A stretch of 64,000 bases of DNA from an uncultured Sulfitobacter sp. (GTDB lineage Bacteria > Pseudomonadota > Alphaproteobacteria > Rhodobacterales > Rhodobacteraceae), in NCBI GenBank assembly GCA_947501805.1, contig CANMXJ010000019.1:1-64000 (forward strand). Reading direction: 5' to 3'. Each line of letters starts with the position of its first letter. Position 1 is the first letter of the stretch. The position numbers and the translations under genes were made by a program. Below are positions 30,603 to 57,200 of the stretch, piece by piece. The notes beneath the pieces were generated by a model. The model was not told where the DNA came from. It worked only from the letters and a program-made list of their open reading frames with translations, and did no database searches.

Positions 30603-30643
30603 CCTCCTGATCAGGTGCAAACTTTTGAGAGCCGATCAGGAGG
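30603..30643 (+). promoter_or_regulatory. perfect 10-bp inverted repeat upstream of nirK
   Basis: CCTCCTGATC (30603-30612) and GATCAGGAGG (30634-30643) are perfect arms separated by 21 bases, placed between copA and nirK. It could be an operator or leader structure for nirK. No T-run follows, and no FNR/NnrR-type TTGAT-N4-ATCAA box was seen nearby. Confidence 0.5.
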
Positions 30644-30684
30644 ACCTCGCAAAGGCAACACAAGCAGTGAAGGGAGACATTCGC

Positions 30685-31866
30685 ATGTCACACAAAGAAA
30701 CTGAAGATAAGAAGCTTACTGAAAACGGAACAAATCAAGCCGTACACCAACATCCGGGTTCTGCACTAAGCCGCCGGAACCTGCTTGTCGGCACGGCAGG
30801 CGTGACAGTCGGAACCGTGATTGGAACATCGGCTGCCATCGCGCAAACAGATCCAGCAGGCACCGCCTCACATGGTCGCCCTTCCGCCAGCCTAGGCAAT
30901 CGTATCTACAGCGCAAACCCGGATCATCCCGGCTTGGCAGACGTTAGCGAAAACCCTGCGAACGTGCCGTCCGCGATCACCCGCACCGAACCAACAACTG
31001 TGCGCATTGATCTAGAGACTATCGAGGTCGAGGCTCATCTGGACGGTGACACACGCTACCGGTTCTGGACGTATAATGGCACCGTTCCCGGACCGTTTCA
31101 GCGCGTTCGCGTCGGCGACACGGTCGAAGTGTATCTTAAGAACAATGAAGACAGCTGGTACGCCCACAATGTCGATTTTCACGCGGTCACTGGCCCTGGT
31201 GGCGGCGCGTCACTGGGTGCGCCCGGGCCTGGAGAAAGCTACAGCTTCAAGTTCAAGGCACTGAATTCAGGTCTTTATGTCTACCACTGCGCAGTCTCGC
31301 CCGTCGCCCAGCATATCAGCAACGGCATGTACGGGATGATCCTTGTCGAACCTGAAGAAGGGATGACTCCTGTCGATCGTGAATTCTATGTCATGCAGGG
31401 CGAAATCTACACTGAGGAACGGTTCGGCACCAGTGGTCTGCTGAACGAAAGCTATGACAAACTGATCGATGAACGTGCAGAATATCTAGTATTTAACGGA
31501 CACGTTGGCGCTTTGACCGACCACTATCCGTTGCAGGCCAAAGTCGGTGAGACAGTGCGCATCTACTTTGGCGTAGGTGGGCCGAACTACACGTCCGCAT
31601 TCCACGTAATCGGCGAGATTTTCGACAAAGCATACTTGCACGGCTCCCTTGTCAGTCCCCCGCTCGAAAGCGTCCAGACTATTCTGGTGGCACCGGGAGG
31701 ATCAGGAATCGTTGAATTCAAGTGCGAGGTACCCGGCCGTTTTGTGCTTGTCGATCACGCACTGTCACGGGCTGAACGCGGTCTTGCCGGATATCTTTTT
31801 GTAGAGGGCGATGAAGCCCCCGACATATTCACCTCACTTGACGAGCCACCTGCTTCGGACGGGTAG
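30685..31866 (+). CDS. nirK: copper-containing nitrite reductase (NirK)
   Basis: The 393-residue two-cupredoxin enzyme reduces nitrite to nitric oxide in the periplasm. It has a Tat signal (SRRNLLVGTAG near 28). Catalytic and copper ligands are visible: the Asp-His pair in HNVDFHAVTGPGG near 158, the type-1 site with VYHCAVSP and HISNGMYG, and later type-2 histidines in FHVIGEIFD and VDHAL. Later elements differ slightly from the commonest forms. I chose ATG at 30685 with GGGAGA upstream. It sits directly after the Cu+ ATPase, fitting copper supply or denitrification at low oxygen. Confidence 0.9.
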   Translation: MSHKETEDKKLTENGTNQAVHQHPGSALSRRNLLVGTAGVTVGTVIGTSAAIAQTDPAGTASHGRPSASLGNRIYSANPDHPGLADVSENPANVPSAITRTEPTTVRIDLETIEVEAHLDGDTRYRFWTYNGTVPGPFQRVRVGDTVEVYLKNNEDSWYAHNVDFHAVTGPGGGASLGAPGPGESYSFKFKALNSGLYVYHCAVSPVAQHISNGMYGMILVEPEEGMTPVDREFYVMQGEIYTEERFGTSGLLNESYDKLIDERAEYLVFNGHVGALTDHYPLQAKVGETVRIYFGVGGPNYTSAFHVIGEIFDKAYLHGSLVSPPLESVQTILVAPGGSGIVEFKCEVPGRFVLVDHALSRAERGLAGYLFVEGDEAPDIFTSLDEPPASDG

Positions 31867-36586: not shown

Positions 36587-36588
36587 GC

Positions 36589-42101: not shown

Positions 42102-43466
42102 TCAAGCCGGCAGGAAACCTGCCAAGAACCCCATCCCGAGCGTTACAAGCGCAGTAATGCCGATGACTGCGACGAGCGCGGGGTGAGGTGACTTTTCGGA
42201 ACTCTCGTCAATATCCTGTGCAGGTTGATACATCGGCACGATGATCCGCAGATAGACGCCAAGTGCCAGAACGGAATTGAGGATGCCGATAACTGCCAGC
42301 CAAACAAAGCCTGACTCAATTGCGGCCGTGAACAGGTAAACTTTGCCGACAAAGCCGAACAGCGGCGGGATACCGGTCAGCGACAGTAGGAATATCACCA
42401 TCACAATTCCCATGACCGGTCGTCTGCGGCCAAAGCCACGCATGTCATTAAGGCTGCGTCCGGATATCATCACCACGGCAAAGGCACCGAGGTTCATCGC
42501 CACGTATGCCGCCCCCAGCACGATCAATCCGGGGACTGCAAGCGAGCTGGCACCCAGCGCCACAATGCCCAACATGAAGTAACCGGACTGCGCTATAGAA
42601 GAATAGGCAATCAGCCGTACCAGATTGGTCTGCACCAGCGCTGTCAGATACCCATATGTCATTGTAACCGCAGAGACCACTGCGATCACCAGTGGCCAAC
42701 CGCTGCTTAAGGGAAGATCGCGAAGCACCTGCGCAAAGGCAAAGATCGCCGCGAGCTTGGTGATGACCGACAGATAGGCTGCGATGGACACCGGCGCGCC
42801 ATCATAGGCATCCGGTGCCCAGAAATGGAACGGCACCAGTGCTGCTTTATACCCTAACCCGATGATCACCGCCACCAGCCCCACCGTGGGTACCAATGGT
42901 CTGCCGTCAAGCGCGCCAAGCGCAGAAAATAGCGTTGATCCTACCCCGCCGAACCAGAAGGTCAGCCCGTAAATCATCACCGATCCGGTGACTGCCCCGA
43001 AAACGAGGTATTTCATCGCGGCCTCTGTCGCCGCATCATCGCGCGGGAATGCCACCAGCGCGAACGAACCGAGCCCCGTCAGCACAACCCCCAGGACCAG
43101 CACCATAATGTCGCCGCCACCCGCCAGCATCAACGCACCAAGTGTCACGAGACAGATCAGCGCATAGACGCTGCCCTCGCGGTCTTGACCCGTGATTTCG
43201 GCGCGCACCATCAACAGTGCTAATGCCGTACCCGGAAGCAGGATCAACTTGGCCCAGCCCGAAATCAGATCTATACGGTAGGTGCCGCTGAACACGGTTG
43301 TGTCAGCGTGCAGCATCGGCAATGTCAGCAGCGTCGCTGCTGCCAGTCCCACCAGCCCAATCACCAGTGCCAGACGCGCGGCACGCATCATCTCGGCCAC
43401 GATCATCAGCATCGCGGCGGATGACAGCAAAAGCTCCGGAATTAGAAAGGAAAGATCACGCTCCAT
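42102..43466 (-). CDS. nuoN: NuoN-like proton-channel subunit of complex-I-like module
   Basis: The 454-residue protein has about fourteen helices and the proton-antiporter core. Visible are the LGLGYKAALVPFHFWAPDAYDGAP segment (conserved lysine and WxPDxY) near 210 and LIAYSSIAQSGYFMLG near 283. Start ATG at 43466 overlaps the nuoM stop (ATGA). It is one of three Mrp-like subunits (L, M, N) of the module; conserved charged residues suggest proton pumping is retained. Confidence 0.88.
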   Translation of the reverse strand: MERDLSFLIPELLLSSAAMLMIVAEMMRAARLALVIGLVGLAAATLLTLPMLHADTTVFSGTYRIDLISGWAKLILLPGTALALLMVRAEITGQDREGSVYALICLVTLGALMLAGGGDIMVLVLGVVLTGLGSFALVAFPRDDAATEAAMKYLVFGAVTGSVMIYGLTFWFGGVGSTLFSALGALDGRPLVPTVGLVAVIIGLGYKAALVPFHFWAPDAYDGAPVSIAAYLSVITKLAAIFAFAQVLRDLPLSSGWPLVIAVVSAVTMTYGYLTALVQTNLVRLIAYSSIAQSGYFMLGIVALGASSLAVPGLIVLGAAYVAMNLGAFAVVMISGRSLNDMRGFGRRRPVMGIVMVIFLLSLTGIPPLFGFVGKVYLFTAAIESGFVWLAVIGILNSVLALGVYLRIIVPMYQPAQDIDESSEKSPHPALVAVIGITALVTLGMGFLAGFLPA

Positions 43467-44926
43467 CAGAAACTCAGGCTTTCCATTGTTGTGTGGATCA
43501 TGTTGATCAGCCAACTCGGCGCGACACCAACCAAAACAGTCAGAATCAAAAGAGGCACAATCACCAGCTTCTCCCTGCGGTCTAGATCGCGCATTTCCAG
43601 CCATTTCTCGTTCTCGGAGCCAAGGAACACGGCGGCGATGGCGCGCAGATACAGGCCTGCGGTTACCACGATGGCAAGGATAGCTATGATCGCCCATGGA
43701 GCGGTATTCAGGGTCGCCAGAAACACCTGAAACTCTGCAGGGAAATGCGCCAACCCCGGCAAACCAAGTGAAGCGAACGCCATCAGGATGAACGACCAGC
43801 CCAACCACGGCACACGGCCCAGCAGACCACCAAATTCACTCATATCGCGGCTGTGGGCGCGGTCCTGCAACATGCCCAGCAAAAAGAACAACGCGCCTGT
43901 CACCAGACCGTGGCTGACCATCTGCAAAGTCGCACCGTCCAATGCAATTGTGCGGATACGCAAATCAACGGTAAGCGCGGCCACCGCCACACCCATCACG
44001 ACATAGCCCATGTGGTTAATCGACGTGTAGGCAATCATTTTTTTCAGATCAGACTGTGCCAGTGCGGCGAAGGCCCCGTATAGCGCGCTGACCACCCCCA
44101 CCGCTAGGATTACCTGACCGGCTTGCGCAAATGCCTCAGGCGTCATTTGCAAAGCAAAGCGTACCAGTCCGTAAGTGCCGAATTTCAGCATCACACCGGC
44201 CAGGATCACGCTGCCCGCCGTGGGTGCCTGAACATGTGCGGCAGGTAGCCAAGTGTGCACCGGAAAGGCCGGTATCTTGACTGCGAAGGTAAACAGCATC
44301 GCAATCAGCGCAAGCATCGCCGCAATGCCTGTCAGAGGTGGCATGTCGATCCAGACGCGCATGTCGAAGGTGCCACTGCTCAGATACAACCCGATAATCG
44401 CGAGCAACAGCGGCAACGACCCCAGCAACGTATAGATAAAGAACATCAGCGCGGCGCGCTGTCGGTCTTCATATCCCCATCCGGCGATCATGAAATACAT
44501 GCCTACCAGCGAGACCTCGAAAAAAACATAAAACAGCAGTCCGTCAAGCGCCATAAACGTGCCAAGTGCGGCCGTTTCGAGCATAAGCATCAACACAACA
44601 TAGCTTGGCGCACGATCGCTGATCCGCGCCGAGTAGATCGCTGACAAAAAGAACAGCAACGACGTGAGCAACACCAACGGCAGGCTCAACCCGTCCAGTC
44701 CCAACCGATAAGCGGCACCAATGGCCGGTATCCACGCGAGTTCCTCAATCTGGGCGAAACCGCCCGCAATAGTGCCGCGCGACCAGATCACAAGCGTGAG
44801 CATGAATACGACACCCGTCACCGCAATCGACATGCCGTGTGCCACGCGGGCCGACCTGTTTGGCAGCACAATCAGCGCCAGCCCGCCCAGAATCGGCAGG
44901 AAGGTGGCAAGGGTCAAGAGTGGCAT
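43466..44926 (-). CDS. nuoM: NuoM-like proton-channel subunit
   Basis: This 486-residue antiporter-like subunit has the helix-5 glutamate in FYVFFEVSLVGMYF near 130, and FAVKIPAFPVHTWLPAAHVQAPT with the helix-7 lysine near 222. LKKMIAYTSINHMGYV follows near 297. These match genuine complex I NuoM, so it should conduct protons. GGAGACATTACC precedes the ATG. It lies between nuoL and nuoN. Confidence 0.9.
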   Translation of the reverse strand: MPLLTLATFLPILGGLALIVLPNRSARVAHGMSIAVTGVVFMLTLVIWSRGTIAGGFAQIEELAWIPAIGAAYRLGLDGLSLPLVLLTSLLFFLSAIYSARISDRAPSYVVLMLMLETAALGTFMALDGLLFYVFFEVSLVGMYFMIAGWGYEDRQRAALMFFIYTLLGSLPLLLAIIGLYLSSGTFDMRVWIDMPPLTGIAAMLALIAMLFTFAVKIPAFPVHTWLPAAHVQAPTAGSVILAGVMLKFGTYGLVRFALQMTPEAFAQAGQVILAVGVVSALYGAFAALAQSDLKKMIAYTSINHMGYVVMGVAVAALTVDLRIRTIALDGATLQMVSHGLVTGALFFLLGMLQDRAHSRDMSEFGGLLGRVPWLGWSFILMAFASLGLPGLAHFPAEFQVFLATLNTAPWAIIAILAIVVTAGLYLRAIAAVFLGSENEKWLEMRDLDRREKLVIVPLLILTVLVGVAPSWLINMIHTTMESLSF

Positions 44927-44938
44927 GGTAATGTCTCC

Positions 44939-46834
44939 TCAGGAATAATACGGTGCGGCCAGCAGTCCGGCCACGATCAGCGCGATGCCGATTGCTGTCA
45001 GTGCAAGTTCGCGATGAATGAAGCCGCTTTGGAGGCGGCGTGCTTGGGCACCAGCGGCAATCATCCGCTGCACAAAGCCAAAGATTGCGGCGTCGATACC
45101 ATTGGTATCTGTGAATTTACTCGCGAGACCCAGTCGCATCGACAACTGTCCGACCCAAAGTGAAAAAGCAAAAAGTGCGGCGTCTGCATGTTCTGCCAGT
45201 TGCGCGGTACCAAGCCCAATTCTACGCACCGTCCCGACCTGTGCTCGCAAAAGGCGCTGCTCCATGGCTTCGCAGTTGGCAGCGATGGCCAAGGCGGGAC
45301 GTAGGATCAACCCGTCCATTCCGCCCGCAACAGCAAAGCCGTTTTGCGCAGGTGTCAGGAGTGGACCAAGCAGACGCGCAGGGGGCACAAACCAACCAAG
45401 TATTAAACCAGCAAGCCCTACGGCCAGTCCCATTGCGGGCACGATCCAGCCGGGTTTTTCAATCTCCGCCCCTAACATATGTTCAAGCGCACCAAAGCCG
45501 AGCCCTAGCCCGGTGGCCAGTGCTACCAGTATGCCCATGCCAATGGTCATAAGTGGGACCGGCACCTGTACAGGCCCCGCGTCGCCATCCCACAATACAT
45601 TTAGCGCGCGACCCATATAGGCACCCGTCAACACCGATCCTGCCAGCGCCAGCGGCAAAAGCCACGGTGCCGCGGTGCTGTCCAGTGCGGCGGCGATGAT
45701 CGCATCCTTGGAAAAGAACGCGGCCAGCGGCGGGATGCCCGCCAGTGCAAGCGCGGCGATCGCAAAACCTGCAAAAATGCCAGGCCGTGCGCGCCCTGCC
45801 CCCGCCAGCGTCTCTAGCCCCGTGCCGTCACGGTCATGCTGAAACACGCCTGCACCTAGAAAAAGGGAACTCTTGATTGCCGCATGGGCGATCAGGTGCA
45901 GCAAAGCCGCAATCGGCGCTCCAGCGCCAATGGCCACCAGCATCAGCCCATATTGGCTACCGGTAGAAGCTGCCAGCAGCCGTTTAAGATCACGCTCTGC
46001 CAGTGCAATCAGTCCGGTGATCACAGCGGTGATACCACCAACAATTCCGACGACCAAAAGCACGCCATCGGGCAACATGGGGGCCGTGCGGATCAGCAGA
46101 ATCGCCCCTGCCGCCACCAGTGTGGCCGAGTGTAACAGCGCCGACACCGGCGTCGGCCCCGCCATGGCACGCATCAGCCAGTCCTGTAACGGCACCTGTG
46201 CCGATTTGCCCATCGCCGCCACCAACAGCAACACTCCAGCCACAAGCGTGGGTGTACCAGTTGAAATAAGTGTAACGGCAATTTCGGATGTGCCAGACAT
46301 GCCAATCAGGATGAACACCCCGATATAGAGACCCGAATCTGCACTGCGCGTGTATAGAAACGCGCGCATTGCGGCACTGGCCACACCCGCGCGGCCATAC
46401 CAAAAGCCGATCAACAGATAGCTGGCAAAGCCCATCATCTCCCAAGCGGCCAGCAGCGTGATCCAGTCACCCGACAGCACCAGTGCCTGCATAGCGGTGA
46501 CAAACAGCAACATTGTCCCAAAAAACCGCACCCGCTCGGGGTCCTTGCGCATGTATCCCGCAGCATAGATCAACACCATAGCGGCAACTGTAGCCACAAC
46601 CATCGAAAGCGTTGCAGTGAGGGGCGAAGCGACGAGGCGGATCGGAAAATCAGGCAAAAAGGGCAGTGAGATGCTCACGACCACACCGTCTGATACAGCA
46701 ACAAAAAGCCCGAGTGCGCCAGCAAACCCAAACACGGCCCCAGTCAGCGCCAGGACCTCGGGCATGCGGCGCAGCGTGAACATCGCCAATGCTGCCAGCA
46801 GTGGGCCCAGCAGGGTCAGAACCAGAATCGTCAT
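44939..46834 (-). CDS. nuoL: NuoL-like proton-channel subunit
   Basis: The 631-residue protein has fourteen core helices followed by the long amphipathic extension expected of NuoL. Segments seen are AAWEMMGFASYLLIGFWY near 127, SAQVPLQDWLMRAMAGPTPVSALLHS near 208 and KRLLAASTGSQYGLM near 288. The C-terminal part is more divergent than the core, with GGMDGLILRPALA near 510. It overlaps nuoK by four bases. In complex I this subunit transmits energy to the antiporter chain. Confidence 0.9.
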   Translation of the reverse strand: MTILVLTLLGPLLAALAMFTLRRMPEVLALTGAVFGFAGALGLFVAVSDGVVVSISLPFLPDFPIRLVASPLTATLSMVVATVAAMVLIYAAGYMRKDPERVRFFGTMLLFVTAMQALVLSGDWITLLAAWEMMGFASYLLIGFWYGRAGVASAAMRAFLYTRSADSGLYIGVFILIGMSGTSEIAVTLISTGTPTLVAGVLLLVAAMGKSAQVPLQDWLMRAMAGPTPVSALLHSATLVAAGAILLIRTAPMLPDGVLLVVGIVGGITAVITGLIALAERDLKRLLAASTGSQYGLMLVAIGAGAPIAALLHLIAHAAIKSSLFLGAGVFQHDRDGTGLETLAGAGRARPGIFAGFAIAALALAGIPPLAAFFSKDAIIAAALDSTAAPWLLPLALAGSVLTGAYMGRALNVLWDGDAGPVQVPVPLMTIGMGILVALATGLGLGFGALEHMLGAEIEKPGWIVPAMGLAVGLAGLILGWFVPPARLLGPLLTPAQNGFAVAGGMDGLILRPALAIAANCEAMEQRLLRAQVGTVRRIGLGTAQLAEHADAALFAFSLWVGQLSMRLGLASKFTDTNGIDAAIFGFVQRMIAAGAQARRLQSGFIHRELALTAIGIALIVAGLLAAPYYS

Positions 46835-47142
46835 CCCTTCAACTCGCGAGCTTCTTCCATCTCGACCGACCCACGCGAACGGAACCGCGCGATGGCGATG
46901 CCAAAGCCAACAGCCATTTCAACCGCCATCACCGCCATGACAATCAGCACAAACATTTGCGCCGCGGGGACGTCCGGATACAGATAGCGCCAGAAGGCCA
47001 CCAGATTGACCAGTGCCGCAGCAAGGATCAACTCTACCCCCATGATGATCATCACAAGATTAGTTTGGCTCAGCGCGCCATAAAGCCCGACCCCAAACAG
47101 GGCCGCACCGACGCTGAGGGCTATTATCAGTTCGGGGATCAT
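46831..47142 (-). CDS. nuoK: NuoK-like subunit
   Basis: The 103-residue, three-helix protein has NuoK characters: LFGVGLYGALSQTNLVMIIMGVELILAAALVNLVAF (shown in family position, conserved glutamate in GVEL) and a second membrane glutamate in MAVEMAVGFGIAI. These two glutamates form part of the proton path in complex I. It overlaps nuoJ and nuoL. Confidence 0.9.
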   Translation of the reverse strand: MIPELIIALSVGAALFGVGLYGALSQTNLVMIIMGVELILAAALVNLVAFWRYLYPDVPAAQMFVLIVMAVMAVEMAVGFGIAIARFRSRGSVEMEEARELKG

Positions 47143-47654
47143 CGCTTGCGTCCTTCACTCGGGTGGATCGCAACCATGGTGGCGGCCACCATCGCCGTCA
47201 GGATCATGAGCGCGGCCGATTCAAAGATAAACATCGAGCGGCCCAAGAGTTCACGCCCTAGTTCTGCCGTTTGCTCGGTCGCGTCCGGGATCTGAAGGTT
47301 CGCCGGTCCCCAATCGGCCAGCCATATAACCGCCAGCGCGGCGACAAATCCGATGCCCCCCGCCCAAAGTGACAGACGTTTCTGGTGCGTCATGTCCATC
47401 GCGCCCATGCCGCCAGGGTCCATCATGAACATCACCATGAAGATCGCCATAACGCTCATCTCCGTGGCCATCATCATGATCTGCAAGACGCCCAGAAATT
47501 CCGCCTGCATCAGCAGGAACATCACACCCACGGCGGTTTGCGAAAACAGTAACGCTAGTGCGGAGCGCACCATTGAAAGAGTGCGAAATACGACGATGCC
47601 GAACCAAACGGCCGCACCGCCAAAAAACATGAGGAAGATCATCTGAGGGGTCAT
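47139..47654 (-). CDS. nuoJ: NuoJ-like subunit
   Basis: This 171-residue protein has five helices, with the NuoJ-type LSMVRSALALLFSQTAVGVMFLLMQAEFLGVLQIMM region around residues 25-60 and the GPANLQ loop. It belongs to the E-channel region that links the peripheral arm to the pumps. Start ATG at 47654 overlaps the nuoH stop; a longer start would read into nuoH. Confidence 0.85.
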   Translation of the reverse strand: MTPQMIFLMFFGGAAVWFGIVVFRTLSMVRSALALLFSQTAVGVMFLLMQAEFLGVLQIMMMATEMSVMAIFMVMFMMDPGGMGAMDMTHQKRLSLWAGGIGFVAALAVIWLADWGPANLQIPDATEQTAELGRELLGRSMFIFESAALMILTAMVAATMVAIHPSEGRKR

Positions 47655-48550
47655 ATCGGGACCACCAGAGTGATGACGCCAACAAGGAATATATTTGCGA
47701 GGGCCAGAGGGATGCCGAGTTTCCAACTGATCTCCAGATATTGCGCCTCGCGAACGCGCGGCACCAGTCGTCCAACACTAACCATCAGACCCGCTACAAA
47801 AAGGATCTTGATCGCGCTCCACGCCCAGGCTGGCAACCATGGACCAAGCCAACCACCGAGATAGAAGGTCACGGTTGCACCCGCCAGTGCCATGATCAGG
47901 ACCATCCGTGCCAGCCGCAGCACGGCAAGGCGCGCACCAGTATATTCGGCCTCGATCCCACCTGCCAGATCACCGCGCGCTGTCGGCAAGTCCAAGGGAG
48001 GCAACCAGCACAACCCCATCGCAGCGGCAACGAACAGCACGAAGCCCAGCGGCTGATAAGCGATGTTCCACAAGGTTGATTGCGAGGTAACGATGTCCAC
48101 GGTCGACAATGATTCTGCACGCATTGCCACGGCAGTAATCGGCATCACGATCAACATCGCATAGGCCACAAACTGTCCCAAAAACCGCCAGCCACCTATC
48201 ATGGCATAGGCACCGTTCGGCCCCCATCCGGCCATGATCAGCGCGACCAAAACATAGGCCAGCGCCGCGTTCAGAAACAAAGCACCTGTCGCTAGATCAG
48301 TGACAATCAAGCCCGGTGCCAGTGGAATTACAGCAACCGCCAAAAGACCAGCTACAAGCAAGACCACTGGTCCGGCTTCAAAAAACAACCTGTCTGGCGT
48401 GCGCGCCAGCAGGGATTCACGCCCTAAAAGTGCAAGCGCTGAAATTGCAGGACGCGCGGGTTCCAGCCGCCCGTGAACTGCCCAGCTTTCCAACACGGCA
48501 ACTAGGTATGCACCCACCGCAAGTGCTACCAGCACAATCAATACGGTCAC
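47651..48550 (-). CDS. nuoH: NuoH-like subunit
   Basis: The 299-residue eight-helix protein is the NuoH/ND1 relative that, in complex I, forms the quinone chamber beneath NuoB and NuoD. Family-like segments are LLPPLDLPTARGDLAGGIEAEYTG (the loop with acidic residues) near 185 and KILFVAGLMVSVGRLVPRVREAQYLEISWKLGIPLALANI near the end (split for brevity in the family alignment). I chose the GTG at 48550, with GGAGG eight bases upstream, over the GTG at 48565, and it overlaps the fusion-gene stop (GTGA). Confidence 0.85.
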   Translation of the reverse strand: MTVLIVLVALAVGAYLVAVLESWAVHGRLEPARPAISALALLGRESLLARTPDRLFFEAGPVVLLVAGLLAVAVIPLAPGLIVTDLATGALFLNAALAYVLVALIMAGWGPNGAYAMIGGWRFLGQFVAYAMLIVMPITAVAMRAESLSTVDIVTSQSTLWNIAYQPLGFVLFVAAAMGLCWLPPLDLPTARGDLAGGIEAEYTGARLAVLRLARMVLIMALAGATVTFYLGGWLGPWLPAWAWSAIKILFVAGLMVSVGRLVPRVREAQYLEISWKLGIPLALANIFLVGVITLVVPI

Positions 48551-50508
48551 GATGTCACCTCCCACGGGCTGATGTCCAGCGATCCGATCCCGGTCAGCGC
48601 GTTGCCCAGCTCCTGTCCCTCCGCGACATCTCCAATCAAAGCTAAATGCGCTGTCGTTGGCGTTTTTATATCTGCTGCAATAACTTTACCTTTATGCAAT
48701 GTTAGGCTCAGTCGGGCTGCGCCACGCGGTGTCTCGACCACGGCTTCGCCCGTGCCTGAAGCAGCGCCAATACTGTGCGGTTCCAGTCTTGCAACCGTAC
48801 CCACAGCCGAGATCAAATCAAGGCTCTGGGTAATCTCGTTGCAGCGTTGCACCAACCGTGCCAACGCATCACCGTCAGTCATTGTGAGCACAGAAAATCC
48901 AATTTCGGCATAAACCGGATCGTCGCTGCGCGTATCACTGGCCATTCCAGAAGCGCGCGCCACGGGGCCGGACAGAGTGTCATTTGCTAGCAATTGACCG
49001 ATCCCACTCAATCTAGCAGCCAGCAGCGGAGTCCGCTGAAGTTTCGCCAGAAATGTACTGAGCTTTGGCTTGAGTGTCGTGACGTCAGTGGCTGCCGCCC
49101 CCTGTACTTTCAATTGAAATGCTGCTGCGCGTTTTTCAATCCAGCTGGACCCAGACTGCGCCCCGAAAGCTGCCAACCAACCAAGGTGACTGGCCACCCG
49201 CTCGCGCTCGACTACCGCAAGACGCGCGCGCGCAATGTCGGGTGCCACGCTTTGGCCGGCCGCTTGCTCAAGCGCGAGACACGCCAGCAGGCGGTAAGCG
49301 ACTGGACTGAGTGGGGACAATGCGGCGAGGTGATCGACAAATTCTGTGGGGCTGGACGGATTTGCAGGCAGCGGATCACTTGAGCCAACCAGACTGTCGG
49401 CGCTGGTGGTCGCCACTGCATCGCCGTCTAATGTCAGCTTTAATTGCAACCCTCCAGGCAGACCCGGAAAAAAAGGCCCGAAGGGAACATCAATCCATTC
49501 CATCTTGAGACCGTCCGCACTTGCAGGCATGTCGCGGGTAAGGTCAACCATCGACATGAAATGAGCCTCGACGCCTTCGACCCTCTCACCACCACCATGA
49601 CCGCCGTGGCCGCCTTGGTGGTTATCCGTGCTGTGTTCGTCATGTGCTTTGCCGTGGGCTTTGTGATCGTGCCCAGAATGTCCGCCAGCTTCTGCGACCG
49701 GCACAAGGTGCATCCCGCACTTCGGGCAGGACCCGGCTTCGTCGCTGACAACTTCGGGATGCATCGGGCAGGTGTATTGCAACGGAGCCTCGGTGCTGTC
49801 GGGCTTTGCGCGCATGTGATGTTGCTTATGGCCTGAGCCATGCGTCTTGTGCTGTTCGTGGTTGTCACCATCCGCAGAATGCCCGCCTTTGGAGCGATCA
49901 TGACAGACAGCGACAGGTTTGGAGTGTTTCTGGGCAGCGACCTCTCGCTTCTGTTTGGGCACAGCATGGCCTCTATGTTCTGATCCAGCGGTTTCGCGCT
50001 CAACCAAGGTCATGCCACATTTCGGGCAATTTCCCGGTGCCTCCTGCACAACTTCGGGGTGCATCGGGCAGGTATATTCCGTGCTGGTTTCCAGTGTGGG
50101 CGCTTCAAAATTCTCTACGTCTGGCTGAAAGGCTGCCACCGCAAAAATCCTGCGTATGTCTGCGATGGCCGCTTCAAGACCGGCTTGGGTCAACGGCCCC
50201 GTCGCATCGGGAACAGGCAAAGGGGAAATGTCATTGGTACCGAGGGTCAGAATGGCCCGTGGGCGCGGCATTTGCGCATAGACAACACAAGCGGCGTCAA
50301 GCAATCCAGCGGGCAGTCGTCCGATGACAACAAGGACATTGGCATGGCGCGGTGTCGCACTCAGGCGCAATCCCGCATCGCCAAGATCGATGCCGACGGC
50401 TCGTGCTATTTCCGCCCCAGGCACCACAAAGCCGCAAAGATCACGCGACATGGCTGCTGCTGCAATCCTTTGAAGCGCGTTCATCGTTCCGTGACGAGCG
50501 CCTCTCAT
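48547..50508 (-). CDS. NuoB-like/NuoD-like fusion with two heavy-metal-binding domains
   Basis: The 653-residue protein combines parts that are normally separate. Residues about 50-125 resemble NuoB (PRHANVLVVIGRLP, YAQMPRPRAILTLG), but the cysteines that hold cluster N2 are missing. Two HMBD modules follow, at 145-168 and 245-268, each with YTCPMHPEV and CPKCGM, separated and followed by histidine-rich stretches (178-231, 277-305). From about 340 on it resembles NuoD/hydrogenase large subunit (VPFGPFFPGLPGG, VERERVASHLGWL), without the HPxTHG quinone loop. No signal peptide is seen, so it should sit on the cytoplasmic face. Start ATG at 50508 overlaps the nuoA stop with GAGG upstream. The fusion suggests metal binding coupled to a proton-pumping membrane arm; activity is unknown. 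Confidence 0.8.
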   Translation of the reverse strand: MRGARHGTMNALQRIAAAAMSRDLCGFVVPGAEIARAVGIDLGDAGLRLSATPRHANVLVVIGRLPAGLLDAACVVYAQMPRPRAILTLGTNDISPLPVPDATGPLTQAGLEAAIADIRRIFAVAAFQPDVENFEAPTLETSTEYTCPMHPEVVQEAPGNCPKCGMTLVERETAGSEHRGHAVPKQKREVAAQKHSKPVAVCHDRSKGGHSADGDNHEQHKTHGSGHKQHHMRAKPDSTEAPLQYTCPMHPEVVSDEAGSCPKCGMHLVPVAEAGGHSGHDHKAHGKAHDEHSTDNHQGGHGGHGGGERVEGVEAHFMSMVDLTRDMPASADGLKMEWIDVPFGPFFPGLPGGLQLKLTLDGDAVATTSADSLVGSSDPLPANPSSPTEFVDHLAALSPLSPVAYRLLACLALEQAAGQSVAPDIARARLAVVERERVASHLGWLAAFGAQSGSSWIEKRAAAFQLKVQGAAATDVTTLKPKLSTFLAKLQRTPLLAARLSGIGQLLANDTLSGPVARASGMASDTRSDDPVYAEIGFSVLTMTDGDALARLVQRCNEITQSLDLISAVGTVARLEPHSIGAASGTGEAVVETPRGAARLSLTLHKGKVIAADIKTPTTAHLALIGDVAEGQELGNALTGIGSLDISPWEVTS

Positions 50509-50870
50509 TCCTGCCGCCTCAGCGCGCCTTGGCTCCAGCCGTACAGCAGGCCAAGGAACAGGATTGCAAGAAAAACACCCATGTCGAGAAGCGCTGTAAG
50601 CCCTTCTTCCCTGTAGACAACGGCCCAAGGATACATGAAGGCCATTTCCATATCGAACGCGAGAAACAACAAGGCGTAGCCATAGTATTTAGCGTGATAT
50701 CGTACCCAGACCGGATCCCGCGACAGCGAGCCTGCCGTTGCGGGCACATCCTTTCCGGGCTCCCTGCGGGTACTACCGATTGCGCGGGCTAGGACATAAA
50801 GACAAATGACAAAACCTACTGTGCCAAGCGTCAGCCCAAATAGAACCGCATATTGGTGAAGCGCGCTCAT
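50505..50870 (-). CDS. nuoA: NuoA-like subunit
   Basis: This 121-residue protein has three helices and the NuoA pattern: RYHAKYYGYALLFLAFDMEMAFMYPWAV near 60, with the conserved F-D-x-E, and a third helix ending in WSQGALRRQE. It is the first gene of the complex-I-like module, with AGGAGAACCTAATTA before the ATG. The module's promoter is expected in 50871-51090. Confidence 0.9.
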   Translation of the reverse strand: MSALHQYAVLFGLTLGTVGFVICLYVLARAIGSTRREPGKDVPATAGSLSRDPVWVRYHAKYYGYALLFLAFDMEMAFMYPWAVVYREEGLTALLDMGVFLAILFLGLLYGWSQGALRRQE

Positions 50871-51090: not shown

Positions 51091-51582
51091 TCAATCTATG
51101 CCGTTCTCCTGCTGCAAACGACGGATATAGGCGACCACATTTAGAACATCAGCTTGGGTAACGCCTTCCACAGCAGGCATATTACCAAAGTCCCAATGAT
51201 GAGCCCGCACACCGTTCTTTGCGGCCAAAACAAATGCCATGTCACCGTGATGACCAGGTTCATAAATTTTATGTATCAACGGTGGAGCAATATCTTTTCT
51301 GCCCTGCCCATTCGGACCATGACATGCAGAGCAAACGGCCTCGTAGGTAGCTTTCCCTAACCTTTCTTTTTCTCCAAAGGTCTCTGGCAGGTTTACTGCA
51401 ATAATGCCGTCGTCAAGAATTGGCGGGCCCTTTTTCTCCAGTAACGGACTAACCTCCGATGATTGAAAAACATACCATGCACCAGCAGCCACGGCGACGA
51501 GAGCAAAGAATACTGCGCCCCACCTCATGATCCTCTCTCCTTCATTCAATTCATCAATTTTCCGTTTTTCATTCTCAGACAT
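51091..51582 (-). CDS. membrane-anchored c-type cytochrome
   Basis: This 163-residue protein has an N-terminal anchor helix (WGAVFFALVAVAAGAWYVF) and a periplasmic class I cytochrome domain. The haem motif CSACHGPNGQG lies near 83 and a likely axial methionine in NMPAVEGVT near 135. It could carry electrons for the multicopper oxidase or a terminal oxidase. It is the last gene of the copper operon, 30 bases after the ABC membrane gene. Confidence 0.85.
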   Translation of the reverse strand: MSENEKRKIDELNEGERIMRWGAVFFALVAVAAGAWYVFQSSEVSPLLEKKGPPILDDGIIAVNLPETFGEKERLGKATYEAVCSACHGPNGQGRKDIAPPLIHKIYEPGHHGDMAFVLAAKNGVRAHHWDFGNMPAVEGVTQADVLNVVAYIRRLQQENGID

Positions 51583-51612
51583 ATCTTTTACCGGTAAATG
51601 CTCTGAAGGTCC

Positions 51613-52860
51613 TCAGATTTGGAGCGGCACAAGGGTGATGTCGCGGGTTTCGGATTGTTGCTCTGGCAACGTGTCCGGCGAAAAAAAGCTGGTGATCTCA
51701 TGATACCTGATCCGCGTGTCTTCCAAAGTTTGATAATAGCGAAACAGCTCTTTCAGAGGCGCGGAAAAGTCCTTGTGTGCTGCCAGCACGGCGACAAGTG
51801 CGCCAAGGCTGATACGGCCCTCGATAACGAAATAGCCTCCTAATGAATAGAAAAGGAACGGAGTAAGCGCGGTCAGAAAATTGTTCAGCGCTTTGATAAA
51901 GAACTTCAGGATGTAGATCCGCCTTCTCACCTTCTCCAGCTCCCGAAAACTTGTACTTGCGCCTCCAAATGTGGAGCCAGTCGCCAACTCCAAGCCATGA
52001 AGCTGGTTGCTCAATTGTCTACCAAGGTGCCGTACTTCTTTGATTCTGATCCGCGACAGCCCATTTACGCGGCGCTGAAGCTTGGGGAGCAATATGAGCT
52101 GTATGGGCAATACTGCCAAAGCAGCAGCCCCAAGAACGGGGTCTTGAATGAACATGAACAACATGATTGTTAGGAGTGTTCCCCCCTGCATGACAGGCAA
52201 AGTCAGTACATCTGCAGCAAAACCGCCAACCGGCTCTACCTCTTGGGCAAGGATTGGAACGATCTCACTTTGTGATTGCGACTGCGGGTCGGTACGCCAT
52301 GCCCGATAGACCAAGAGTCTGAAGCGGCGCAGAAATCGTTCTGCAACATAGCCCTTGAAGACGTTAAGTACGTATTTGCTCAACCCATTTACGCTGATCG
52401 CTAGCAGATAGAGACCAGACAAAATCATCAGAAGCGTAACCTGATCAAAGTAATATCCAAGGAACTCAATCGGGAAGCGATCAGCATCCAGCGCATTGTT
52501 CACAATTTGCTTCGGAAGTTCCAACGTAACATAGAGAACGGGCATCGAAATGAGGCTCATCCCGATCATTATTGCCTGCTGTTTTCTGGAATACCGCAGC
52601 ACGGTTTTGAAGAGACTATGTTCCAGTCCACGGACCGCCTGTGACTGGGGTTGCCGATCAACAATCCTGTCACGCCGCAAAAACCTGAGAGCCGCGCGTA
52701 TGAGGAGATAGACGATCACGCCGATAAGCATTGCCGGGGCAAAAACAAAAATAACATGGATGAACGGGTGAATCCAATCAGGCGCAGTATCATCATACTG
52801 ATAGCCAAAAAACTTCGTCACGCTGTGAACAACATCATGATATTTGTCGAAACGTATCAT
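51613..52860 (-). CDS. ABC-exporter-type transmembrane protein without ATPase domain
   Basis: The 415-residue protein has a first helix (about 30-55) and a six-helix ABC-exporter membrane domain (about 95-380) with DPVLGAAALAVLPIQLILLP near 240. The reading frame ends with RDITLVPLQ, exactly where a nucleotide-binding domain would start; no Walker A, LSGGQ or Walker B motif is present in it or next to it. Either the protein works with an ATPase encoded elsewhere or the gene is truncated. Its start is uncertain (ATG at 52860, or GTG at 52869 touching the cupredoxin stop). It lies inside the copper operon. Confidence 0.7.
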   Translation of the reverse strand: MIRFDKYHDVVHSVTKFFGYQYDDTAPDWIHPFIHVIFVFAPAMLIGVIVYLLIRAALRFLRRDRIVDRQPQSQAVRGLEHSLFKTVLRYSRKQQAIMIGMSLISMPVLYVTLELPKQIVNNALDADRFPIEFLGYYFDQVTLLMILSGLYLLAISVNGLSKYVLNVFKGYVAERFLRRFRLLVYRAWRTDPQSQSQSEIVPILAQEVEPVGGFAADVLTLPVMQGGTLLTIMLFMFIQDPVLGAAALAVLPIQLILLPKLQRRVNGLSRIRIKEVRHLGRQLSNQLHGLELATGSTFGGASTSFRELEKVRRRIYILKFFIKALNNFLTALTPFLFYSLGGYFVIEGRISLGALVAVLAAHKDFSAPLKELFRYYQTLEDTRIRYHEITSFFSPDTLPEQQSETRDITLVPLQI

Positions 52861-52869
52861 TATATTCAC

Positions 52870-53403
52870 TCAGTTTTTTGGTTTAGGCGCGAGATGGTCG
52901 TGGACCATAATAACGCCAAACATACCCGCTTCACGGTGGCCCGGGATGAGACAAACAAATTCCAGGTTGGTTTTGCTCGAAAATTTCCAATCAAGTGTTG
53001 CAGTGCTTCCACTCGAGATCGCGATTGAATTGGCGTCTTCATGCTTCATATCAGGGTGGTTTCGCATCCATTGCTGATGCTTGGCGATTTCATCAAATGA
53101 ACCCAGAAAAAACTCATGATCCAGATCGCCGAAATTATTTACGACAAAACGCACGACCGCGCCTTCTTCGATGTGGATGGCATCAGGATCAAACAGCATA
53201 TAGCCACTTTCAGTTTCCTTAATGTTGACTTCAATTGTTCGGGTAATCTCGGCATCCAACCCGGGTTTACCAATAGGAACGTGCCCCGGATGATCATATG
53301 CCTGTGCGTGTGGCTCTTCGCCGATGCCTGTGCTCGCTTGAGCTCCCACCGTAGAGAGGCACAAGACAATAAGCAGCGTCAGAACTTTTGTCGGGGAATA
53401 CAT
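52870..53403 (-). CDS. periplasmic cupredoxin
   Basis: This 177-residue protein has a signal peptide (VLTLLIVLCLSTVGAQA) and one plastocyanin/azurin-like domain. The type-1 copper ligands are visible in DHEFFLGSFDE (His), and in VCLIPGHREAGMFG, which contains Cys, His and Met in the spacing C-x4-H-x4-M. It should be a soluble copper protein of the periplasm, perhaps an electron carrier or copper carrier. GGAGCAGAAA precedes the ATG at 53403. The neighbouring upstream gene encodes a second cupredoxin of the same kind. Confidence 0.87.
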   Translation of the reverse strand: MYSPTKVLTLLIVLCLSTVGAQASTGIGEEPHAQAYDHPGHVPIGKPGLDAEITRTIEVNIKETESGYMLFDPDAIHIEEGAVVRFVVNNFGDLDHEFFLGSFDEIAKHQQWMRNHPDMKHEDANSIAISSGSTATLDWKFSSKTNLEFVCLIPGHREAGMFGVIMVHDHLAPKPKN

Positions 53404-53513
53404 TTTCTGCTCCAATAATGAAGTTTCACAACACGTGGCGGCTTTGTTCGGCAATTTGGGAGAGAGGAGGTAGAGTGACAGGAGGCGGTGAAGAACACCG
53501 CCTCCTGTGCTGA

Positions 53514-54317
53514 TTACTTCAGCTGGGTAACTGTCAGCTTGCCTTTGACAGGTTCCGCGACAAACTCAATGTTCTGACCTTCAGACATTTTTGAGATCAT
53601 CGCTTCATCTGCGCGGAAGACCATCTTCATGGCTGGCATATCGAGGTTCAGCAGCGGCCCGTGATCGATTGTGACCTTGCCACCTTTTGCGTCCACTTTT
53701 GTGATCGTGCCTTTGGTGTATTCCACATCGGCCTGTGCCACTTGCACGTCCACTGGTGCCATCGTCATGCTGGCCTTTACCATCTGGTCCCCGACAGCAA
53801 CGGTGCGGAACATGCCGGACTCGTAGTGGCCCGGAATAAGGCAAGCTGCCTCGAACGTTCCGTCATTTGCAAACGTCCAGATGACCTCGCCCGAAGCACC
53901 GGCATCAAGGGTGATGCGGTTTGGATCGTCATGCTCCATCATCATCTTCGCCATTTCGATCTTGTGGGCAGCGTTGCGCTCCACCGTATCAAGGACGAAC
54001 TCATGCTCCTGCTCACCCTTGTTCTCGATCACAAAGCGGATGGTTTCGCCTTTTTCGAAGGTCATCTCGTCACCTTCCAGCAGCATTTGGCCGTCGTCGG
54101 TCTCAACCATGGTCACGTTGATCGTCCGGTTTACTTTTGCAACATCACCGGGTGTTCCGATCATCATCATTGCTGCATGGTTATCAGCGTGCCCATCGGC
54201 GCCGTGGGTCTTCGGCTCTTCAACTTTCACTTCATCATGTCCACCATGTGTGCCACCCGCGTAAGCTGGTACTGCGAATGTGAAAGCAAGTGCAGTCGTC
54301 AAAAGAAGATTTTTCAT
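53514..54317 (-). CDS. periplasmic cupredoxin fused to CusF-like domain
   Basis: The 267-residue protein has a signal peptide (LLLTTALAFTFAVPAYA) and a His-rich N-terminal region (GGTHGGHDE, HADNHAAMMM). The cupredoxin domain has EHEFVLDTVE and ACLIPGHYESGMFR (C-x4-H-x4-M). A CusF-type Cu(I)-binding domain follows, with DHGPLLNLDMPAMKMVFRA near 215. The combination of a Cu(II)-type and a Cu(I)-type site suggests a metallochaperone that feeds the multicopper oxidase. It lies immediately downstream of that gene. Confidence 0.9.
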   Translation of the reverse strand: MKNLLLTTALAFTFAVPAYAGGTHGGHDEVKVEEPKTHGADGHADNHAAMMMIGTPGDVAKVNRTINVTMVETDDGQMLLEGDEMTFEKGETIRFVIENKGEQEHEFVLDTVERNAAHKIEMAKMMMEHDDPNRITLDAGASGEVIWTFANDGTFEAACLIPGHYESGMFRTVAVGDQMVKASMTMAPVDVQVAQADVEYTKGTITKVDAKGGKVTIDHGPLLNLDMPAMKMVFRADEAMISKMSEGQNIEFVAEPVKGKLTVTQLK

Positions 54318-54363
54318 CAGTTTTTCCTGTAAGTTTGGTTGTTTGATTGGTCAAAAGGCTATC

Positions 54364-55722
54364 TCAGCCCTTTTGCGTTGGTTTCGGTGTCAGAATAGTT
54401 TTTGGGCTGTTGTTGGACGCAAATTCTGGAAGTTCTCCAGTCCACTCATAGGCCTGCTCGCCAGGAGGGTTTTCATACCAACCTGGGTCGGAGTAATCGT
54501 CGGCATCGATCCCGTTGCGAACTTTTACGACCGAGAACATACCACCCATTTCGATGGGGCCATGCGGACCCCAGCCATTCATCATCGGAATGGTGTTCTC
54601 GGGTAATTCCATGGTCATTTTACCCATGTCGCCCATACCGGCCGTACCCATTGGCATATAGTCCGGCTGGAACTGTCTGATTTTTTTGGTCAACTGCGAC
54701 TTGTCGACACCGATGAAGGTGGGCACGTCATGACCCATTGCATTCATGGTATGGTGTGACTTGTGACAGTGGATCGCCCAGTCACCCAAGTGGTCGGCCG
54801 TGAACTCATATGCCCGCATCGCGCCCACTGGGATGTCGATGCTGACCTCTGGCCACTGCGCAGATTCAGGCACCCAGCCACCATCCGTACAGGTCACTTT
54901 GAAATCATAACCGTGCATGTGGATCGGGTGGTTTGTCATCGTCAGGTTGCCAACGCGCACGCGAACCTTGTCTCCCTTATTCACGACCAGCGGATCAATG
55001 TCGGGGAAAATCCGGCTGTTCCATGTCCACAGGTTGAAATCCGCCATCGTCATGATGCGCGGCACATATGTTCCAGGATCAATATCAAAGGCGTTCAACA
55101 TGATCAGGAAATCACGATCAACTGGCATGAACGTTGGGTCCTTGGGGTGAACAACGAACATACCCATCATACCCATAGCCATCTGGGTCATCTCGTCAGC
55201 GTGCGGGTGATACATGAAAGTACCCGACTTGATCAAATCGAACTCATAGATGAATGTCTTGCCAGGTTTGATTCCCGGATGGCTAAGGCCAACCACACCG
55301 TCCATGCCCGACGGCAATATTAGACCATGCCAGTGGACAGAGGTATCCTCGGGCAGTTTGTTTGTCACATAGATACGAATGCGATCGCCCTCGACCGCTT
55401 CGATTGTTGGACCAGTCGACTGGCCGTTGTAACCCCATAGATGCGCGATCATGCCATCGGCCATCTCACGCTCTACTGGCTCTGCAACAAGGTGAAACTC
55501 TTTTACCCCGTTATTCATCCGGTGCGGCAAGGTCCAACCATTGAGTGTGACAACCGGGTTGTAGTCTACGCCCGATGAGGGCCGTGCTGTCACCTGTGTC
55601 GCGGCAGTGTCCATCAGTGCCGCTTCGGGCAGACCCATATTCATAGTCTGCCCCCAAGCTTTAGAGGAAACGAGTGTGGCACCTGCGGCACCGGCTCCGA
55701 GTAATTGACGTCTATTCAACAT
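54364..55722 (-). CDS. multicopper oxidase (CopA/CueO-type), Tat-exported
   Basis: This 452-residue protein has a Tat signal (MLNRRQLLGAGAAGATLV). All copper motifs are visible: HWHGLILPSG near 124, MYHPHADEM near 170, HPIHMHGYDF near 271 and HCHKSHHTMNAMG near 327. Methionine-rich stretches at the C-terminal side (MPMGTAGMGDMGKMTME) resemble those that bind Cu(I) in CueO/PcoA. It would oxidise Cu(I) to Cu(II) in the periplasm. It is followed by two cupredoxins and preceded by a TolC-type protein. AAAAGGAATGATGAT precedes the ATG. Confidence 0.93.
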   Translation of the reverse strand: MLNRRQLLGAGAAGATLVSSKAWGQTMNMGLPEAALMDTAATQVTARPSSGVDYNPVVTLNGWTLPHRMNNGVKEFHLVAEPVEREMADGMIAHLWGYNGQSTGPTIEAVEGDRIRIYVTNKLPEDTSVHWHGLILPSGMDGVVGLSHPGIKPGKTFIYEFDLIKSGTFMYHPHADEMTQMAMGMMGMFVVHPKDPTFMPVDRDFLIMLNAFDIDPGTYVPRIMTMADFNLWTWNSRIFPDIDPLVVNKGDKVRVRVGNLTMTNHPIHMHGYDFKVTCTDGGWVPESAQWPEVSIDIPVGAMRAYEFTADHLGDWAIHCHKSHHTMNAMGHDVPTFIGVDKSQLTKKIRQFQPDYMPMGTAGMGDMGKMTMELPENTIPMMNGWGPHGPIEMGGMFSVVKVRNGIDADDYSDPGWYENPPGEQAYEWTGELPEFASNNSPKTILTPKPTQKG

Positions 55723-55736
55723 ATCATCATTCCTTT

Positions 55737-57200
55737 TCAGTGAGGTGCGCCGCCACCGGCGGCAAGTGCTGCGCCCTCTCCACCGCCGCCACCGCCTGCA
55801 CCGCCACCATAAATGGCAGCTGTCAGATCGGCCTGGGCCATGTAGAAGTCGCTTTTCGCGTTTGCAGCTTCAAGAGATGCAGCCAGCTTCTGGCGCACAT
55901 CTGTCAGCAACTCGAATGTATTCGTGATCATGCCGTTGTAGGACAGCAGACCTTCTTCTTCGACCGTTGTTGTCAGCGGCACCAAGACATCCTGATAATG
56001 GCGCGCGATCTTGTAGGAAGCGTGGTAGGAGGCTTCTGCACCTCTTGCTTCGGAACGTACGTTTACTGCCGTTTCAGCAAGCACGTTGGCTGACTGCAAA
56101 TACGCAAGCTCGGCTTTACGCATCCGGGCCTTACCTGAATCAAAAATAGGTATCGCAAATTCAAGTTCAACTTGGGGCGTAATCACCTTTTCGGTATCAC
56201 CGTCCTCACCAACTTCACGCTCAAGCTCCGCACCCCCAACGATTTCGAGGTCGCTGACAATCCGTGTCTGATCTGTCAGGCCATATGCCAGAGCCTGCGC
56301 TTCGAGGCCTAGTTTTGCCACCCGAAGATCTACACGGTTGCGCAGGGCCTTAGCCTCAATGTTACCAATGCTACCAACTGAGCGCGGCAACTTTGGCAAG
56401 GCATCAGGCACATAGTAATCAACCTCTGTTCCCCAAAGGCCCATAAGCCGCGTCAATTCTTCCTTCGATTTTGTCGCGTTCAGGCGCGCCCGCGCAAGTT
56501 GCCCTGCAAGCTCTGCGTTAAAGGCCTGTTCACGCGCTTGATTGGCTTTATTCAGAGCGCCGGTTTCGCCCAGTTTTCGAGCCAGCTCAGAGCCTGCATC
56601 GGATGTCGCCTTTGCCCTCTTGAGATACCCAACGGCTTCGAATGCAGTTACGGAAGCTATCCATGCCTGACGGGTCTGATTGGCCAAGGCCAACGTATCA
56701 TTAACCGCAGCCAGTTGCGCTTGTCTAAAGTTTGTATCCGCAAGTGCGCGCCGTTTCTTACGGGTTGTGGCCTCCAAAAGGTTTGCACGGATCAGTCCCT
56801 CGATTGCGCGGTATGCACCCAACTCTGGCGCACCAATACCCAAAATTCCGATAGACACGATCGGGTTTTCAGGTGTCGACTCCTGCCAAGCGTCTGCAGC
56901 CGACAGACCAACATTGGCGTAGGAAGCTTGCAATCCTTTGTTATTCAACAAAGCAACCTGAACTGCCGTATCCGCAGAGATAGTCTTGCGATGCACCATC
57001 CCATGAACCTGCTTTTTTAAAGCTTCGTTCTCGGCTTGGGTTTCGGCAAAAACCGTCCGCTTCCCGATAGCCGGCGTTATCTGGCTGGCAATATTGGCAA
57101 ACCCGGCCTTCGGCTCGGTATAGACACCCGGGATTGCCGTCGCACAGGCACCAAGGACTAATGGAAAGCCAACAATTAATGGCAGTTTTGAAATACGCAT
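55737..57200 (-). CDS. TolC-family outer-membrane lipoprotein
   Basis: The 487-residue protein has a lipoprotein signal (GFPLVLGACATAIPG) and an OMF fold with two repeats: TRQAWIASVTAFEAVGYLKRA and SYHASYKIARHYQDVLVPL. Its C-terminus ends in a very glycine-rich tail. It resembles CusC, the outer-membrane channel of copper efflux systems. However, neither a CusA-type RND pump nor a CusB-type adaptor is in the window. It could pair with a system elsewhere or export by other means. Start ATG with GGAGGG; it overlaps the lipoprotein stop. Confidence 0.87.
   Translation of the reverse strand: MRISKLPLIVGFPLVLGACATAIPGVYTEPKAGFANIASQITPAIGKRTVFAETQAENEALKKQVHGMVHRKTISADTAVQVALLNNKGLQASYANVGLSAADAWQESTPENPIVSIGILGIGAPELGAYRAIEGLIRANLLEATTRKKRRALADTNFRQAQLAAVNDTLALANQTRQAWIASVTAFEAVGYLKRAKATSDAGSELARKLGETGALNKANQAREQAFNAELAGQLARARLNATKSKEELTRLMGLWGTEVDYYVPDALPKLPRSVGSIGNIEAKALRNRVDLRVAKLGLEAQALAYGLTDQTRIVSDLEIVGGAELEREVGEDGDTEKVITPQVELEFAIPIFDSGKARMRKAELAYLQSANVLAETAVNVRSEARGAEASYHASYKIARHYQDVLVPLTTTVEEEGLLSYNGMITNTFELLTDVRQKLAASLEAANAKSDFYMAQADLTAAIYGGGAGGGGGGEGAALAAGGGAPH

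Follow-up and report, generated by a model that had tools for sequence, protein, structure and literature searches.

The DNA analysed here, hereafter the window, is a stretch of 64,000 nucleotides from contig CANMXJ010000019.1 of an uncultured Sulfitobacter sp. (assembly GCA_947501805.1), which carries at positions 42102-50870 of its minus strand an eight-gene operon related to respiratory complex I. The genes stand in the order nuoA, fused nuoB-nuoD, nuoH, J, K, L, M and N, with the ATG of the NuoB/D fusion overlapping the NuoA stop, and both the coordinates and the gene content given in an original prediction made from the letters alone were confirmed by Pfam (Table 1). In the fusion, the NuoD-like part gave a partial match to Complex1_49kDa (1.5e-18), and a structure comparison (VIA-align), whose listed rows cover the D part, led to the NuoD fold. 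In addition, two stretches of the fusion belong to the heavy-metal-binding domain (HMBD) family (PF19335, 3.3e-28; 97.7 bits for the whole protein against a gathering cut-off of 23.6). These HMBD domains, the missing N2 cysteines and quinone-site residues, and the methionines gained in NuoJ, NuoK and NuoA all go beyond what had been predicted.

Table 1. Features of the complex I-like module and of copper genes of the same island (positions in the window).
Feature	Position	Strand	Support
NuoA-like subunit	50505..50870	-	Pfam Oxidored_q4 4.2e-25
Peripheral subunit, 653 aa: NuoB-like part, two HMBD with His-rich linkers, NuoD-like part	48547..50508	-	
First HMBD (CPMHPEV...CPKCGM)	49996..50079	-	PF19335
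Second HMBD	49699..49779	-	PF19335
NuoD-like part with N-terminal FMSMV motif, quinone histidines replaced	48547..49560	-	
NuoH-like subunit	47651..48565	-	Pfam NADHdh 8.3e-52
NuoJ-like subunit, methionine-rich helix 3	47139..47654	-	Pfam Oxidored_q3 2.7e-19
NuoJ helix 3, residues 54-78: Met 60, 61, 62, 66, 69, 73, 75, 77, 78	47421..47495	-	
NuoK-like subunit	46831..47142	-	Pfam Oxidored_q2 3e-19
NuoL-like proton channel subunit	44939..46834	-	Pfam Proton_antipo_M 2.4e-56
NuoM-like proton channel subunit	43466..44926	-	Pfam Proton_antipo_M 2.2e-66
NuoN-like subunit	42102..43466	-	Pfam Proton_antipo_M 3.8e-50
Cytochrome c, ABC (ATP-binding cassette) membrane domain without ATPase, cupredoxin, cupredoxin+CusF, multicopper oxidase, outer-membrane efflux protein	51091..57200	-	Pfam
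P-type ATPase with two HMBD domains and second multicopper oxidase, same island	28160..31866	+	Pfam

The residues that carry the redox chemistry of complex I have been lost from the peripheral subunit. A cysteine at any of the four N2 cluster positions was found in 0/77 B parts, and His36, His40 and Tyr83 of the quinone site (host numbering) are kept in none of the 90 D parts, with the histidines replaced; Asp85 is likewise kept in none and Arg86 in 8, and NuoD positions 169-185 are gaps in 89-90 of the 90. Outside the HMBD, no invariant or nearly invariant cysteine was observed in 36 fusions, and these (n = 36) lack the NiFe-binding cysteines of the large subunit of group 4 [NiFe] hydrogenases. 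In NuoH, E157 is changed to Ala or Ser and E241 to Arg in 85/85 sequences (E. coli numbering), both residues being invariant in 33 ordinary NuoH; D213 and E228 are kept, and several acids of NuoH are lost. Two alignment runs disagreed on the N-terminal segment of NuoH with E36/R37, on which no claim is made.

Queries with NuoC, E, F, G, I and B (phmmer), which matched both of the ordinary operons used as positive controls, gave no match in the window or in the remainder of its contig, and none across 100-odd module loci except for a formate dehydrogenase resembling NuoG in locus L211. The scan thus rejects NuoC, E, F, G or I partners beside the module and bears out their absence from the operon, which had been noted at the outset. 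In the host genome NuoC and ordinary NuoB are each matched once, within the main operon of contig C1. Altogether, the sequences support a module with neither redox site nor electron-input genes, devoid of NADH or iron-sulphur input.

HMBD motifs were detected in 63 of 66 long fusions, at 0-8 motifs per fusion; those of Thiogranum (L102, L103) and Hymenobacter (L105) lack them and keep His- or Met-rich linkers. In a second subfamily, reached via weak matches and hosted among others by Halomonas, Roseivivax and Acuticoccus, the gene order is unchanged and the B-D fusions contain neither HMBD nor N2 cysteines; close to where FMSMV would stand, they carry a conserved Met motif of their own (GMMGG.PYGR). 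Four of its loci (L202, L203, L204 and L211) are interrelated, not independent cases, and L214 represents a remnant. The methionines of NuoJ, NuoK and NuoA are common to this subfamily as well.

Shared gains were defined as residues fixed at 90% or more in each subfamily and present at 10% or less in ordinary complex I. By this definition methionine accounts for 10 of the 23 gains in NuoJ (171 columns), 4 of 10 in NuoK (101) and 3 of 9 in NuoA (120), and for 0 of 14 in NuoL (579), 1 of 13 in NuoM (478) and 1 of 10 in NuoN (449); the ordinary references numbered 57 for NuoJ, 33 for NuoH, 32 for NuoA, 12 for NuoK and just three each for NuoL, NuoM and NuoN, which makes false gains easier in these last subunits, not harder. 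Methionine content was 0.110 in module vs 0.044 in ordinary NuoJ, 0.091 vs 0.041 in NuoK and, with a slight difference, 0.043 vs 0.037 in NuoA, and lay below the ordinary level in NuoH, L, M and N. NuoJ positions M28, 61, 62, 66, 69, 73, 77, 78 and 86 are methionine in 85/85 sequences of subfamily 1 and 10/10 of subfamily 2, and in 0-1 of 57 ordinary NuoJ (27 from module-bearing genomes and references, and the 30 best-scoring from other Pseudomonadota); the ten shared methionines include M141 in the last helix. Helix 3 (54-78) contains 9-10 methionines in subfamily 1 (n = 85) and 8-9 in subfamily 2, vs 1-4 in ordinary NuoJ (n = 57). Furthermore, NuoK M31, M69 and M72 occur in 86/86 sequences and M76 in 84/86 (ordinary, 0/12), and NuoA M74, M76 and M79 in 78/78 (ordinary, 0, 1 and 3 of 32). 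According to the accessible part of PMC7613608, helix 3 of NuoJ/ND6 in complex I gates the water wire that leads from the quinone site to the antiporters, and the quinone cavity is formed by loops of ND3, ND6, 49 kDa, PSST and ND1. Since the methionine-rich helix is this gate, and the methionines gained in NuoK and NuoA surround their E-channel acids, the new thioethers occupy the gate and the vicinity of those acids.

All seven core membrane subunits of complex I are present, and the channel residues of NuoL, NuoM, NuoA and NuoK are kept: E144, D178, K229, H254, K342 and K399 in 77/77 NuoL; E144, K234, K265 and E407 in 75/75 NuoM; the E-channel acids D79 and E81 (E. coli numbering) in 78/78 NuoA; and E36 in 86/86 NuoK, where position 72 is Glu in 82 and Asp in 4. 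In NuoN, K158, K247 and K395 are kept in 75/75 sequences and K217 in 74/75. The proton-channel residues are thus largely intact, and most of the pump is retained.

A genome scan with a profile of the D part gave 94 relatives, the best 80 of which were kept and assigned by record title to Alphaproteobacteria (35), Gammaproteobacteria (34), Actinomycetota (7), Chloroflexi (2) and Bacteroidota (1), with one unplaced. The order A-BD-H-J-K-L-M-N was found in 52 of the 54 loci that span nuoA to nuoN, the exceptions being L064, cut after nuoH and with another J-K-L-M-N set upstream, and L074, where K and L were undetected; the search for this gene order in other genomes, proposed in the original prediction, thus shows the eight-gene arrangement to recur in all five of these groups. 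On plasmids, tblastn returned 10 records at 80% query coverage or more, from Nitratireductor, Sulfitobacter, Roseovarius, Paracoccus and Rubrobacter. The module was detected in 5 of the 398 genomes of a phylum sample, the window's own included, at E <1e-100, and the next match was at 2e-16, a gap which indicates that the family is sharply bounded; in the genus of the window it occurs in 4 of 57 other genomes. A Paenibacillus match (H13) turned out to be an ordinary complex I operon and served as reference alone. An ordinary NuoH (E <=4e-115) accompanied the module in 34/34 host genomes tested, taken from 35 loci picked by hand among the 80.

In a tree of 61 rows, with the host's MrpA and MrpD as the only Mrp references, the L, M and N of the module branch with NuoL, NuoM and NuoN, respectively, apart from the host's own copies. 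For each of L, M and N the two subfamilies form one clade (support 100/98, 100/99 and 100/97), and the decayed duplicate of the main complex I that such trees might have revealed did not appear. The module is a member of the complex I superfamily by descent. Left out were the rows of NuoJ from L064, NuoM from L061, L064 and L075, and NuoN from L045, L064, L075, L078 and L099; L064 was omitted for its main-type J-K-L-M-N set, and the others were judged contig-end cases in which a paralogous subunit had been picked. The ratio of nonsynonymous to synonymous substitution rates, over 10 pairs where change was measurable, was 0.03-0.10 for NuoJ, 0.02-0.06 for NuoK, 0.04-0.09 for NuoH and 0.10-0.37 for the D part, low values that indicate purifying selection on these sequences.

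Partial and additional copies were also observed. Remnants consisting of NuoA and a cut fusion gene lie on Xanthobacter Py2 and Martelella plasmids (L017, 13735-14426, and L214, 11693-12468, respectively), both adjoining copper-type genes. A stray NuoN-like fragment is found on the minus strand upstream of the module in L021, L022, L025 and L092, annotated as a proton-conducting transporter subunit in three of the four. In a Halomonas metagenome-assembled genome, the J-K-L-M-N set of L064 (112-5777) has an ordinary NuoJ and is separated by about 3 kb from the module, which is downstream of it. Possibly broken copies are that of Afipia (L074, where K and L were undetected) and those with NuoH in two open reading frames, in L067 and in Rubrobacter marinus (L080/L020).

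The copper genes next to the operon (Table 1) are part of a broader association. Copper families were present near 25 of 52 subfamily 1 loci (flanks of at least 5 kb, 554 kb in total) vs 1 of 20 controls (Fisher p 7e-4). The controls were arbitrary 20 kb stretches from long contigs of module-bearing genomes, unmatched for plasmid origin; non-copper pumps, moreover, can be matched by the P-type ATPase query. In subfamily 2, strict copper families were found near 10 of 12 scanned loci: the neighbours of L202 are CopB, a multicopper oxidase, a sensor kinase and regulator, a cupredoxin, CopD and CopC, and those in Roseivivax and Acuticoccus are CueR, a P-type ATPase and a multicopper oxidase. Co-occurrence with copper genes thus holds as an enrichment, but it is not universal.

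Other genes of the island were also recorded. The ATPase-less ABC membrane domain lies at 51613-52869, between the cytochrome c and cupredoxin genes, and a similarly named protein is part of a copper cluster in Sulfitobacter SK025. Downstream of the module, at 38862-41422, are genes for a DUF6629 protein, an ion channel and an APC permease; DUF6629 recurs in 8/52 module flanks. An APC permease or potassium channel is likewise close to the module on Acuticoccus, Halomonas or Roseovarius plasmids (L211, L213, L019). The island further encodes, at 24973-27306 and 34340-37506, acetate kinase together with phosphate acetyltransferase, as well as the arginine deiminase, ornithine carbamoyltransferase and carbamate-kinase-like protein of an arginine deiminase pathway, which are routes to ATP without respiration.

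Taken together, these observations argue for a soft metal as the ligand that replaces quinone and for a job linked to protons. We propose, with a probability of about 0.5, that the module is a redox-free relative of complex I in which Cu(I) takes the place of quinone, probably acting as a proton-coupled Cu(I) exporter driven by H+ influx; transport, its direction and the metal are what we infer. In a fuller version, which is slightly less probable, complex I would have become a machine for transition metals that discarded its quinone/N2 redox site, with a methionine-lined soft-metal path through NuoJ, NuoK and NuoA taking over the role of quinone, and that would be spread by plasmids as a proton-driven Cu(I) exporter with a full membrane arm. 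Cytoplasmic Cu(I) would be collected by the HMBD and the His/Met-rich tethers, would enter at the site where complex I binds quinone, and would move along the NuoJ methionines through the E-channel on a presumably continuous path. The charge of Cu(I) may substitute for the protonation steps caused by quinone reduction, so that its passage would be coupled to proton movement through NuoL, M and N. Export by proton influx appears the likeliest direction, given the detoxification genes nearby and the metal-binding domains on what is presumably the cytoplasmic side; a cupredoxin, CusF and the multicopper oxidase could act as periplasmic receivers. The original idea of a proton-coupled machine linked to copper rather than NADH gains from the lack of NADH and iron-sulphur input, the copper gene link and the largely intact channel residues, and is weakened by a copper link that is not universal.

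Several observations weigh against the export proposal. NuoN E133, next to the E-channel, is Val or Leu in 75/75 sequences, so that coupling cannot exactly match that of complex I. NuoH, with 7 shared gains over 298 columns, has no methionine among them, and the HMBD is missing from L102, L103, L105 and all of subfamily 2. The AlphaFold2 model of NuoJ alone is weak (mean predicted local distance difference test score, pLDDT, of 64), although residues 54-78 form one helix in it, and the seven shared helix-3 methionines showed no excess over chance on one helix face (P 0.13); a five-residue stripe that seems clustered was chosen post hoc, and face clustering was discarded. No copper family was found in the examined flank of 27/52 subfamily 1 loci, ten proteins checked from copper-less loci were unrelated (ribonucleotide reductase, protease, molybdoenzymes, kinase and others), and the neighbourhood controls, as noted, were not matched. 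A CueR-type operator upstream of nuoA was also rejected: with up to 3 mismatches it occurred in 29/80 stretches vs 122/400 shuffles, without excess, and with up to 2 mismatches in 8/80 vs 13/400, several of the 8 being near-identical copies.

The main rival is a copper-gated proton valve or pump, in which proton flow is switched on or off by copper bound to the peripheral subunit and to the gate at NuoJ helix 3, and no copper is carried across. It would account for a methionine cluster placed exactly at the water-wire gate of complex I (accessible part of PMC7613608) and for the kept proton channels, but ten shared NuoJ methionines, M141 among them, with those of NuoK and NuoA, exceed the needs of one gate site, and the neighbourhood is made of detoxification genes; we consider it unlikely. 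Less probable still is the same machine working on another cation, be it Ag(I), a transition metal other than copper or, as Mrp does, an alkali cation, while the HMBD part buffers or senses metal. Against it, ladders of thioethers are suited to Cu(I) and Ag(I), and copper genes accompany 10/12 subfamily 2 loci; in its favour, Mrp antiporter subunits are among the relatives of NuoL, M and N, HMBD is named as a general heavy metal domain, and half of the loci have no copper neighbours. The cytochrome c and multicopper oxidase genes upstream might suggest a copper-based redox enzyme, with copper in the peripheral subunit substituting for the N2 cluster and passing electrons, yet the loss of the quinone-site residues and of NuoD stretch 169-185, the lack of donor genes and the position of the methionines in membrane helices make this very improbable. 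A decayed duplicate, or an ordinary complex I borrowing the electron-input arm of the main operon, could draw on the ordinary NuoH found in every host genome tested, but is dismissed because every member has lost the N2 ligands and quinone residues, the substitution ratios are low, the L, M and N clades are separate and the order is kept in 52/54 loci with both ends.

How quinone chemistry couples to distant proton pumping in complex I has long awaited an answer. A relative in which most of the pump is kept without redox, and whose fixed changes are concentrated in the gate helix and E-channel, would allow coupling to be studied without electrons and, if the proposal of Cu(I) export is true, would offer a natural, redox-free way to test how proton pumping is driven by the E-channel. 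If Cu(I) is moved, the module would also represent an unrecognised plasmid-borne copper system whose subunits are currently annotated as NADH-quinone oxidoreductase. Neither a description of the module nor a described equal of its putative function was found in the literature searched (preprints and most subscription papers were outside its scope).

Among known systems, group 4 [NiFe] hydrogenases (Mbh) provide the best scores for the peripheral parts, with MbhJ for the B part (1.1e-6) and MbhL for the D part (3.7e-22), the latter in a near tie with NdhH (3.5e-21). The original prediction had compared the module with Ehr complexes, described in the accessible part of PMC6349859 as group 4 relatives without Ni/Fe ligands; the module likewise lacks Ni ligands. 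However, of eight outgroup loci, six lack Ni ligands and keep the iron-sulphur cysteines of the NuoB-like partner (the other two were reassigned to subfamily 2), whereas the module has lost these cysteines in 77/77, and its membrane arm is of the complex I type, with NuoA and NuoN, unlike that of Ehr and Mbh. If iron-sulphur cysteines in the NuoB-like subunit are taken as a defining trait of Ehr, the comparison does not stand, and an Ehr or hydrogenase identity is ruled out by the missing iron-sulphur and Ni ligands. The Mrp antiporter offers a precedent for non-redox cation/proton exchange with NuoL/M-like subunits (accessible part of PMC7419157); the module differs from it in possessing NuoA, B/D, H, J, K and N, and in an L and M that fall with NuoL and NuoM, not with the host's MrpA/MrpD. 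The DAB inorganic carbon pump also joins a complex I-type proton subunit to a non-redox cytoplasmic protein, with a carbonic-anhydrase-like DabA and DabB as single proton-conducting subunit (accessible part of PMC13144422); no DabA-like protein was among the Pfam results of the operon. With HMBD proteins the fusion shares a PF19335 score above the gathering threshold. With respiratory complex I itself the likeness lies in the order of NuoA, H, J, K, L, M and N, the branching of L, M and N with NuoL, NuoM and NuoN, the kept pump residues and the NuoD fold, and the module departs from it by the lack of NuoC, E, F, G and I, the fusion of NuoB with NuoD, the lost N2 and quinone sites, the inserted HMBD and the methionines gained in NuoJ, NuoK and NuoA.

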